The notes under the pieces: generated by a model
Seen by the model: the letters and a program-made list of their open reading frames with translations, nothing else
What the model was told of the DNA's origin: nothing
Databases searched by the model: none
Program-made: the position numbers and the translations under genes
From: Ianthella basta
Taxonomy: Eukaryota; Porifera; Demospongiae; Verongiida; Ianthellidae
Reading direction: 5' to 3'
NCBI GenBank assembly: GCA_964019415.1
Contig: OZ025868.1
Location: 1,356,001 to 1,420,000 of the forward strand
Length of the DNA stretch: 64,000 nucleotides
In this document: positions 19,492 through 59,067 of the stretch, piece after piece
Layout: each line of letters opens with the position of its first letter
How positions within the stretch are numbered: the stretch's first letter is position 1

Positions 19492-22400
19492 ATGATGACA
19501 AAGTGCAGCTACATTGCCACTTTCATCGTCCTCCTTTCAGCTGTTGGAGGCAAGTGTTGTTACATTCACTACGGGACCATACGTACTCCTCCACGTCTTG
19601 ATATGGTGATTTGCTGCCGACACAGGTCTCGCCCAAGTGACGTTCTTCACTCAGCCTCAGGACGCTACCGTCACTGAAGGAGGAAATGCTACTTTCCGCT
19701 GTGCTGCGGAGGAGAACGGGATGGCGCTATTGTTCGGTTGGGATATCGCTCCTGTAGGAGGGACACGAAGGGCAGTGATCACTGGTAGTCAGGTGGCCGG
19801 GGTGTCGACGGTTACAGTCAGTGGTGACCGAACGCAGCTAACTTTAACTGGGGTGCAGCGTGAGGTGGATGGAGCGACGGTAGTGTGCAGTGCATTTGGG
19901 TATACTCAAGATGTCGACTCTAATCCAGCCACAATTACTGTCCAGTGTAGGTATACTGTAATGAGAAATAGAACTATTGACTTACTGCAATCATTAACAA
20001 TTCCCTTCAATCTAAAATGCAGTCCCTCCTGCATACAACCTACTCCTCAACCAGCCAACCACTGTGTTGGAAGGAGAAGACTTCACTTACTCCTTTGGGT
20101 TTGATGCTAACCCAACTCCCACCAACTTCACCTGGTCCAGGAGTGGCCAGGTAGTTGTCAGTGATGTTCAGATAGCCACCTCTGTCAGCAGCATCACCAT
20201 CACCAGCACTACCAGGAATGACAGTGGAGTGTATGAGGTGGTGAGCTACAATGAGGCAGGGAGGGGAGCAGCCAACTTCACTCTGGATGTGCAGTGTGAG
20301 TTAAGAGCTGAGCTGTGCTGCACTTTACTGTGAGCTATGAGTATGGGTAGCACATACTTTGACATCTCCATGACATTGTCTCAAGTTGATTGACATAATT
20401 GTGATTACAATCATAATCATTGTCTCGTATATCATCCAGATCTTCCACAAATCATCAACAGAGCCAGTCAAACTCTTCTACTCCACGGAGCAGAGTTCAT
20501 CTTCAACTGCACATCAGAACCAGCCAACCCTCCTGCAGTGGAGTACTCCTTTCAGAAGGATGGACAGGATGTGGATGGTGATCGTGCTATGGTGCAAAGG
20601 GCAGTGCTGACCATCCCATCTGTGCAGGCAGGAGATGGAGGCAACTACTCCTGTAGTGCTAACAACAGTGTGGGGAGGGACACTGTCTACAACAACCTTA
20701 TTGGTTAGTAATTCCATGCTTATAATAGTCAGTACCTTCAACTTTGTTGTAAATTGGATTCTCTTGTGCTAATTTCCACAAACATCTTCTCAATGCACAG
20801 TCCCCCCAAGTGCTCCACAAGCCATCACTGTCAGTGAAATAGGTCCCTTCTCAGCCACAGTGAGTTGGCAGCCCCCACTGGAGGATGGTGGTGCAGTTGG
20901 TCCTCTCATGTACACTGTCACACTCATCAACAGAATGAATGAGAGTGACGTCACCACCTTCACTGCTACCACTGCCCTCACAATGGAGTTGACCAACCTC
21001 AGACACAGTGTGAGCTACCGAGTGCAAGTTGTAGCAGAGAATGAGGCAGGAATGGGACCAGCAGGAGAAGGGATATTTAGGACAAATGATACTAGTAAGT
21101 GCATGTGGTTCTTCGTAGTTTAGTGCGTACATAGAGTGCAGTTGGTCTTCCTTCAGTACTAGTACTAGTGGTATGTTTGATGTATCTGTAGTACTAGTAT
21201 ATAGTGTCTGGTGTATTTTAGTGGGTAGCAGTGTGAGTAGTTGTGCACTGTGTGTGGAAGTACGTGATTGTTAAATGGGAAATGCACTTTATATAGTTAT
21301 TTCTACTAGTTCCCACCATTGGTGATGTTGAAGTGCTAGCTCTGACACTGAACACAGTCCAAGTAGATGTCGCTGTCAGTGATGATGGAGGGCAGCCAGT
21401 ACTGGAGTATACTGTGAGAGGGATATTGGTGCCACTGGGAATGTATACACAATAATTTCACTTCTGGTATATACATGTACCACAGGTGACAGTCCGTGGC
21501 ACTACAGTGATGTTCAGTGGTTCTATGGGGAATGTCACAGGACTGGCTCTGATGAATGGAGTGACCTACAGTGTCAGTGTGGTGGCTAGGAACAGTATTG
21601 GAGACAGTGGGATGTTCATTAACAATTTTAGAGTCCCTTGTGAGCAGTTTCATTGGTTATTTTCACTTAGGCATATGTATATGTACAGTTATGTCCTTCT
21701 TTCCATCACTCCCTGTGCTGATGATTGGATTGATTAGTACTCACTCCTTCCACACCATGCACCTCCTCTCTCCTGCAGTCCCTCCCAACATCACTATGCA
21801 GCCAGTGGCACTCACTCCTGATGAGACCACCACTCAGTGCTGTGCTGGTATTCGAGTGTTCCTGGAAGACCACACTGACCCCAACATTGTCTTCACTGCC
21901 CAAGTCAGCACAGACGGCACTCCCTTCACTGATCGCTCTGTCACTAGAGAGGGAGATGTGGTGTATGTGGAGGGACTTCAGGCAGGTACTTCCTACAATA
22001 TCAGACTAACTGTGTGGAACCAGTTTGGGAGTGTCGTGAAGGATGTGTTGGCCACACCACTGATTGGTGAGACAGTGTATTGTGTTTGCACTCATTGTTA
22101 GATCAGTCAAGCCAACGCAGGAAAGGCATCTGCATAAATGTCTAGTTCTTGTACACAACGAGTCCTTTGATTTCTTTCTGGTTTGTCTAATTGTTGTTTC
22201 AGTCGATCGAACCTGCATGGAATGTATACGTATGCGATTGTATATCTTGTCTCACCCTTTCTTTGCATGCATGTGCTTCTCCGCCTTCAGGCTCCCCATC
22301 TGATCCATCATTGCCGGTGGTGTCAGTGGAAGGGTCCTCAGTCTCCATCCAGTTGAGTACCAGGTACCCTGGAACAAACACAAGAGGACAGTTCAAGTTC

Positions 22401-59067: not shown

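Follow-up and report, generated by a model that had tools for sequence, protein, structure and literature searches.

A 64,000-nucleotide stretch of the Ianthella basta genome (the window; positions 1356001-1420000 of contig OZ025868.1, here C1, of a 209-Mb, 96-contig genome) carries six genes for receptors with immunoglobulin (Ig) and fibronectin type III (FN3) domains and tyrosine tails, and these genes belong to a far larger tandem complex of such receptors. The COX1 gene of the assembly, translated with TGA as Trp, has Demospongiae as its nearest named cluster, at 93% identity, which places the genome among the demosponges. To judge from the DNA, the anatomy is that of a recognition-receptor complex, with many copies, diverse outer domains, tyrosine tails and exchange of modules, and we regard the megabase complex as a strong candidate for sponge self/non-self recognition. 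Self/non-self discrimination in sponges has been described as remarkably specific (PMC5450542), and according to a 2025 review, the way in which invertebrate allorecognition works is a complete mystery (PMC12065747). One mapped locus with 63 receptor bodies, modular ectodomains and tyrosine tails would make the sponge question genetically testable.

Extent of the complex

It had been proposed that the receptor genes form an expanding tandem cluster, and the cluster was found to continue far beyond the window on both sides. Receptor bodies were counted by the exon of the membrane-proximal FN3 domain (FN4), broken genes included. This gave 63 full-length FN4 exons at C1 0.855-1.855 Mb, 46 of B type and 17 of A type (one A-type exon with a stop). 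A B-type match on C20 that is interrupted by stops was not counted, nor were matches on C13, C27 and C1 that are shorter or weaker. The window holds six of these bodies. The idea that its cluster is the whole locus was dropped, the window making up about 6% (about one sixteenth) of the complex. The median spacing of the bodies is 8.9 kb; most of them are on the plus strand as far as about 1.53 Mb (3 minus), and most on the minus strand further along (20 minus, 5 plus). Matches to the Ig1 exon, partial ones included, numbered 32 with a B query and 46 with an A query, all of them at C1 0.859-1.858 Mb. The FN1 exon had 92 matches (best 150 of 594 candidates scored), mostly in the complex and some on other contigs, and the B-tail exon had 75, some of which lie outside the complex on C13, C27, C4 and C1 13.9-14.3 Mb.

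Two other places hold related exons. A lone relative outside the complex at C13:3193312-3196348 (FN1 69%, FN4 69%, tail 62-64%) is a possible founder copy, and FN3-like and tail-like exons at C18:181-211 kb form another small group with a complex-type tail.

Gene models in the window

The initial annotation had described six head-to-tail receptor genes of two families (A1 and A2; B1 to B4), and all six were recovered at the coordinates it had claimed. They and four of their exons are as follows.

19492-24417, plus strand: A1; signal peptide, three Ig, four FN3, transmembrane segment (TM) and tyrosine tail; 11 exons; open frame of 799 amino acids (aa)
25437-28977 (homology end), plus strand: B1, a pseudogene; 10 of the 11 exons located; FN3 exon frameshifted and tail exon interrupted by a stop
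38114-42921, plus strand: A2; all 11 exons present; 799-aa open frame
38277-38597, plus strand: A2 Ig1 exon; outer domain; Ig fold predicted with medium confidence
43948-47374, plus strand: B2; 10 exons placed; tail of class TB; FN2 segment B3-like
48709-52286, plus strand: B3; 10 exons located; tail of class TB, which has YDDI and NPAY twice
49226-49492, plus strand: B3 Ig2 exon; dN/dS of about 2 (interval 1-4), the highest value among close B copies
51299-51595, plus strand: B3 FN4 exon; most conserved B-type exon over the wide set (92% mean aa identity, 14 copies)
52018-52286, plus strand: B3 tail exon, class TB; YDDI (ITIM-like, see below), NPAY twice and PYEEF; dN/dS about 0.3, four close copies
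53652-59067, plus strand: B4; Ig1-FN1 B3-like, FN2a-FN3 mostly B1-like; long TM-tail intron

In A1 and A2, the exon order is signal peptide, Ig1, Ig2, Ig3, FN1, FN2a, FN2b, FN3, FN4, TM and tail, the second FN3 domain being split over two exons. Intron 1 is GC-AG in both genes and the remaining nine introns are GT-AG. The 11-exon plan that had been ascribed to all six genes is complete in A1 and A2, and B1 to B4 share ten of its exons with matching phases; since no first exon could be located for the B genes, 11 exons are a presumed number for them. A scan for a hydrophobic ATG-to-GT exon, combined with upstream conservation, gave no signal-peptide exon for the B genes; ahead of these genes it showed about 80-225 bp of conserved sequence with no usable start in it. 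In B2 the usual acceptor of FN4 is missing, and the exon has to begin at one 21 nt further in. The intact genes are predicted to encode type I membrane proteins with a signal peptide (seen in the A genes only), three Ig domains, four FN3 domains, a transmembrane segment and a tail. The membrane-proximal FN3 domain of B3 (the FN4 exon listed above) contains RSRR, which we take to resemble a furin-type pattern and which might permit ectodomain shedding.

The pseudogene reported by the initial annotation is B1. With the usual acceptor, the frame of its FN3 exon (from 27614) shifts downstream of PPNI, codon 16 being a stop, and its tail exon has a stop at 28729-28731, after RCCKAD. We consider B1 dead because the frameshift leads to a stop, to which the tail stop is added. 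The other five of the six window genes are open through every placed exon.

Duplication, exchange and module mixing

The pairs A1+B1 and A2+B2 represent one unit present twice, at a distance of about 18.5 kb, with B3 and B4 as additional copies; judged by this arrangement, the copies arise by tandem duplication. Segment exchange between copies had also been claimed, and per-segment identities bear it out, as the nearest copy switches within B4 and within B2. From Ig1 to FN1, B4 is 99-100% identical to B3 in exons and introns. Between FN2a and FN3, B4 mostly lies closer to B1 than to B3 (FN2a, 99.0 versus 97.1%; next intron, 94 versus 82%; FN3, 98.2 versus 96.4%), and for its TM and tail no copy stands out as the nearest. 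In B2, the Ig1-FN1 part is closest to B1 (95.5-98.7%), but FN2a with its intron, and FN2b, match B3 at 98.9-100%.

We also sampled 16 bodies in 314 kb (40 kb of which is N) for their combination of Ig1, body and tail types; 15 were classified, and one minus-strand body stayed unassigned. A1 and A2 combine an A-type Ig1 and an A body with a TA tail. B-type Ig1, B body and TB tail occur together in B2, B3, B4 and the body at 1459212, and in B1 with a cut tail. The same Ig1 and body types are joined to a TA tail at 1021449 and 1441682 (the Ig1 of the latter is just 39% like that of B3), and an A-type Ig1 is joined to a B body and a T3 tail at 1029631 and 1038598, where a second Ig1 candidate of 1038598 is partial and has stops. 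The body at 995618 has two near-full Ig1 candidates, a B body and a T3 tail. No Ig1 was assigned to the bodies at 945135 (TA), 1009222 (T3) and 1454451 (no tail either). By these assignments, Ig1 type, body type and tail type have been reassorted between the predicted genes.

Tyrosine tails

Phosphotyrosine-type tails on type I Ig/FN3 receptors were part of the earlier description, and the sampled tails agree with it. NPxY occurs in 15 of the 16 (shuffle mean 0.2), Yxx[VILM] in all 16, and a pattern like the immunoreceptor tyrosine-based inhibitory motif (ITIM), [SIVL]xYxx[IVL], in 11 (shuffle mean 2.5, maximum 8), although the tails are related to each other, so that the shuffle tests overstate independence. 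In 13 aligned tails, G-V-T, D, E and P-A-Y are present in every row, and the N of NPAY in at least 90%. The pattern of the immunoreceptor tyrosine-based activation motif (ITAM), YxxI/L-x6-12-YxxI/L, was found for this first complex in 0 of 16 sampled tails and 0 of 120 listed database tails.

A tail profile had 414 matches in a protein database, of which the best 120 were examined. All 120 have NPxY, in part a selection effect since these tails are ranked by likeness to the profile, and 56 have the ITIM-like pattern. Related tails lie on megabase contigs of other assemblies; listed by contig, with contigs distinguished by length alone, there are at least 12 on 860,820 bases, at least 7 on 595,518 and at least 6 on 774,385. 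Five of the 12 tails listed on the 860,820-base contig are identical to sampled tails from C1:930-1399 kb, so the region is present in another assembly too (perhaps from the same reads), which bears on whether it could be an assembly artefact. Thirteen listed tails on contigs of 595,518, 683,989 and 1,446,205 bases look as if they came from this species or a sister species. Of these tails, three were compared with the whole own genome and had best matches of 97, 86 and 84%. These contigs may be another haplotype, individual or species, and no claim of polymorphism is drawn from them.

A tail tree of 83 rows (16 own tails and 67 listed tails on contigs >40 kb; 87 columns) has an A-type half of 52 rows and a B/T3-type half of 31. 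Both halves hold own and foreign tails, and within them the rows mostly group by origin, with origin labels assigned after the sequences had been viewed. Since own and foreign rows occur in both halves, the tail classes seem older than the lineage split, and the copies seem to have expanded or been homogenised separately in each lineage. The initial annotation had held that one-to-one orthologues across distant sponges would speak against its reading; the tail exons do not appear to have this pattern, in foreign assemblies that may or may not be from sponges.

In four stretches, 3-4 tail matches stand in a row (C13:3082014-3082721, C13:3226653-3227132, C4:2313457-2313999 and C1:8310852-8311406). 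They are mostly one open frame, and the tail unit seems to be repeated there within single proteins.

A second cluster with an ITAM exon

The A-type tail query had 30 further matches at C1 13.86-14.33 Mb, 12-13 Mb from the first complex. One gene of this second cluster was read (L039). Besides an Ig-like exon (assigned by reading; Pfam gave no match) and a weak FN3 exon, it has exons for the TM, the ITAM and the tail. The ITAM exon contains YEDI-VAVDTA-YDDI, a full ITAM pattern (YEDI-x6-YDDI), and the tail, a related NPAY tail, carries GGVTSSDVVMEDNPAYQ. With the ITAM exon as query, 31 matches were found, all at C1 13.866-14.323 Mb, the residues themselves being seen in L039 alone. Such a cluster would have implications for the age of ITAM-type signalling in recognition.

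Domains and structure

Pfam found Ig and fn3 domains in A2 and B3. At E 0.1, it reported no kinase, Calx-beta, lectin, LRR or SRCR domain in either protein. They thus differ from receptor tyrosine kinases, the frames stopping after the tail exon, and from the sponge aggregation factor with its Calx-beta repeats. Ig1 gives weak matches in A1, A2 and B3 (E 1e-3 to 3e-4, under the curated cut-offs) and a clear one in B1 (E 3e-7, over the cut-off). An AlphaFold model of the A2 Ig1 from four sequences is a medium-confidence Ig sandwich (pLDDT 65, pTM 0.60), which matches V-type and I-type Ig domains alike and is in this respect generic (best 50 Foldseek matches). The model of the B3 Ig1 (pLDDT 48, pTM 0.35) was not used.

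Profile matches of the Ig-FN3 ectodomains are chains of the NCAM, DCC and Robo type, in part over short stretches. For full-length B3, a search of 5.8 billion proteins (best 7989 candidates scored) gave 15 matches, none of which is an orthologue; they are generic bacterial and vertebrate Ig/FN3 proteins, the best of them 27% identical.

Constraint on the exons

Amino acid identities and pN/pS (nonsynonymous to synonymous differences) were taken from sampled copies, exons with stops or <80% coverage being dropped; because the copies exchange segments, all constraint values are rough. In a wide set of B-type copies, the mean aa identity is 0.59 for Ig1 (15 copies), 0.64 for Ig2 (15), 0.84 for Ig3 (12), 0.83 for FN1 (10), 0.77 for FN2a (14), 0.72 for FN2b (14), 0.74 for FN3 (14), 0.92 for FN4 (14) and 0.69 for the tail (6). 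The outer two Ig domains are thus the most diverse and FN4 the least, with a gradient that is not smooth. A-type Ig1 exons have a mean aa identity of 55% (9 copies).

A close set comprised B1-B6, the pseudogene B1 and the broken copy B5 being kept for exons without stops. Its pooled pN/pS is 0.91 for Ig1, 1.76 for Ig2, 0.65 for Ig3, 0.82 for FN1, 0.87 for FN2a, 0.85 for FN2b, 0.67 for FN3, 0.37 for FN4, 0.62 for TM and 0.28 for the tail. A codon-model grid with the Muse-Gaut (MG) model gave omega values of 1.0 for Ig1 (0.6-1.5, n=6), 2.0 for Ig2 (1.0-4.0, n=6), 0.3 for FN4 (0.2-0.6, n=5) and 0.3 for the tail (0.2-0.5, n=4). Among the close B copies, the outer Ig exons are by these estimates little constrained, and FN4 and the tail are kept.

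These values bear on the idea of a decaying, repeat-driven expansion in which the copies are mostly non-functional. The broken B1, a remnant named A3, the lone body at C1:1454451 and the reverse-transcriptase and integrase open reading frames (ORFs) within the window would all fit such decay. However, omega = 1 was rejected for the close-set tail and FN4 (2 delta lnL 10.74 and 6.66), and the open frames of five of the six window genes also argue against it, so we consider this explanation highly improbable.

Self/non-self recognition and competing readings

These features lead us to infer that the proteins are expressed at the surface, bind through their outer Ig domains, signal by tyrosines and have a role in self/non-self recognition. 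In the mechanism that we propose, the outer Ig domains would bind a ligand that varies, carried by another cell or by a microbe, or possibly each other, and the FN3 stalk would hold them off the membrane. Upon contact, the tail tyrosines (Yxx[VILM], NPxY, often ITIM-like) would be phosphorylated and recruit SH2 or PTB proteins. The ligand, less certainly, would be self, so that the complex would serve self/non-self (allo-) recognition, perhaps balanced by the ITAM-bearing receptors of the second cluster on the same contig. That the complex consists of signalling receptors for self/non-self recognition is, in our judgement, an evenly balanced proposition. The initial annotation had proposed an allorecognition candidate; the architecture of a receptor cluster stands, and allorecognition proper, within the self/non-self reading, is put forward tentatively as an inference. 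Rather unlikely is the wider proposal of a histocompatibility-like complex of the sponge phylum, in which an ITIM-like/NPxY megabase would be paired with a true-ITAM Ig-FN3 cluster that has a related tail. If it were true, integration of inhibitory and activating tyrosine motifs would serve self/non-self recognition in sponges, cnidarians and chordates.

Several observations weigh against self/non-self recognition. Positive selection on the outer Ig exons is not proven: omega >1 for Ig2 is not significant in the close set (2 delta lnL 2.97), and the B copies are related to each other, so that pair counts overstate independence. In the wide B set, grid omega is about 0.8 for both Ig1 and Ig2, 0.5 for FN4 and 0.4 for the tail, with Ig1 and Ig2 below 1 (2 delta lnL 7.74 and 4.01), and the Nei-Gojobori (NG86) values lie close together (Ig1 0.76, Ig2 0.74, FN3 0.74, FN4 0.50, tail 0.57). 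The variable Ig domains of the earlier description are recognisable in the outer-domain diversity among the B copies, whereas the A-type exons show no outer-inner contrast (pN/pS: Ig1 0.60, 9 copies; Ig2 0.56, 5; Ig3 0.62, 4; FN1 0.55, 5; tail 0.79, 10), and the tails are the least constrained of them. As the A-type tails are not conserved, our confidence in both the self/non-self and the allorecognition readings is lowered. The ITIM-like pattern is lacking in five of the 16 sampled tails (four T3 tails and C1:1014128) and in 64 of the 120 database tails, and NPxY and Yxx[VILM] are not specific to immunity. In Amphimedon grafts, cell-adhesion and aggregation-factor genes were not significantly enriched, and the main text of the graft paper does not contain the words immunoglobulin or receptor (PMC5450542); these transcriptomes thus give no support for the Ig/FN3 receptor family.

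The main competitor holds that the genes encode germline-diversified pattern-recognition receptors that are directed at microbes or symbionts and take no part in allorecognition. Microbe receptors, too, form large tandem families with diverse outer domains, and every feature of the complex fits them. Of the pattern-recognition receptors identified in Halichondria panicea, 62% show individual-specific expression, and this sponge has almost 200 putative cytokine receptors in which kinase, Ig and FN3 domains are dominant (PMC8242945), which favours this view. The lack of lectin, LRR and SRCR domains in A2 and B3 at E 0.1 speaks against it, and we hold it possible, if doubtful.

It might also be argued that these are ordinary adhesion receptors for tissue cohesion that expanded by chance and were homogenised by gene conversion. 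The partly short profile matches to NCAM, DCC and Robo type chains agree with this, as do the homogenisation of FN4 across the complex and the lack of an outer-inner contrast in the A-type exons. However, neither 63 bodies in one complex nor the reassortment of Ig1 and tail would be expected of housekeeping adhesion genes, and we regard the explanation as decidedly unlikely.

Comparison with known recognition systems

Like the sponge complex, the Alr complex of Hydractinia and Podocoryna is a tandem complex of many type I Ig-superfamily membrane proteins. Alr proteins are not known to have FN3 domains, and A2 and B3 contain such domains. The sponge receptors differ from Alr in having four FN3 domains each and NPxY tails, so that the likeness is one of layout only; at that level the Alr-type layout seen in the initial annotation is a real resemblance. 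For Hydractinia symbiolongicarpus, 41 Alr genes have been reported (PMC11999971), and for the Podocoryna complex 22, with some more outside it (PMC13119343). ITAM and ITIM domains have been reported for the Hydractinia candidates (PMC12065747).

The fester co-receptors (FcoR) of Botryllus are type I, with variable-type Ig domains and long tails that contain ITIM, hemITAM or core YxxI/L/V motifs, and are encoded in a polymorphic locus; as described in a review, they have a sushi domain and two C2-type Ig domains and no FN3 (PMC12065747). The sponge receptors share with the fuhc/FcoR system the type I plan, an outer Ig domain that may be of variable type and tails with tyrosine motifs, but they carry FN3 in place of the sushi and C2-type Ig domains, and the link to fusion applies to Botryllus only. 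According to the same review, the candidate proteins of sponges, cnidarians and ascidians are not conserved among each other (PMC12065747).

The vertebrate paired receptor complexes KIR and LILR also consist of tandem Ig receptors with shared tails, exon shuffling, and activating and inhibitory motifs. The sponge complex differs in its FN3 stalk, its NPxY tails and an ITAM cluster 12-13 Mb away, and no homology is implied. Among sponges, Ig-domain receptor tyrosine kinases and adhesion molecules are known from Geodia; they likewise present an Ig ectodomain on the sponge cell surface, whereas the receptors of the complex have a short tail and no kinase. In the Dysidea avara paper, both passages on immunoglobulin concern TIR-Ig genes only (PMC12909245). 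No description of a sponge Ig/FN3 receptor complex was found in the titles and abstract openings of the papers listed for sponges in open-licence literature, the longer listings being covered for 25 of 41, 12 of 43, 12 of 184 and 12 of 502 papers.

The classical candidate in sponge recognition is the aggregation factor, of the Calx-beta type. This genome, too, has Calx-beta exons in clusters, but on other contigs: a scan (best 150 of 969 candidates scored) located clusters at C6 7.36-8.47 Mb, C11 mainly 4.8-8.1 Mb, C23 1.68-1.83 Mb and C20 0.78 Mb, with a few matches on C36, and these clusters are unlinked to the Ig/FN3 complex. At C1:3057018-3058675, a Calx-beta exon (3058469) stands about 1.2 kb downstream of an FN1 exon that shares 84% identity with the B type, which is a possible link to genes of the aggregation-factor type. 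This Calx-beta match is the sole one on C1 among the matches listed and lies outside the complex.

Other features

Downstream of B4 and between B1 and A2, the window contains further pieces related to the receptors.

32642-35000, plus strand: second Ig-collagen copy; A-like Ig1, then stretches 96-98% like parts of 61487-63377
59726-60420, plus strand: A3 remnant; A-type Ig1 exon, then short Ig2 and Ig3 remnants
60725-63150, plus strand: Ig-collagen gene; its own Ig1, A-type Ig2, EGF-like exon, three collagen exons and a short C-terminal stretch

The Ig2 exon of the Ig-collagen gene at 60725-63150 is 90% identical to the A2 Ig2. Its EGF-like exon was assigned by reading, Pfam reporting collagen alone. 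The Ig-collagen genes appear to be built partly from receptor Ig exons and are possibly soluble relatives of the receptors. An ORF at 11695-12141 has a C-terminal stretch similar to theirs.

In the TM-tail intron of B4, an ORF at 57194-57667 (minus strand) matches the Phage_integrase family (E 9e-8) and has no match in a phage collection. Reverse-transcriptase ORFs lie upstream of the receptor cluster at 8773-10113 and 14719-18272 (both minus strand), the latter beside an endonuclease ORF, as in elements of the LINE (long interspersed nuclear element) type. Long repeats occupy window positions 1-8000 and 29389-30837, where the same HHH- and PPP-rich peptides can be read on both strands. Elsewhere in the assembly, COX1 on contig C96 contains nine TGA codons, read as Trp.

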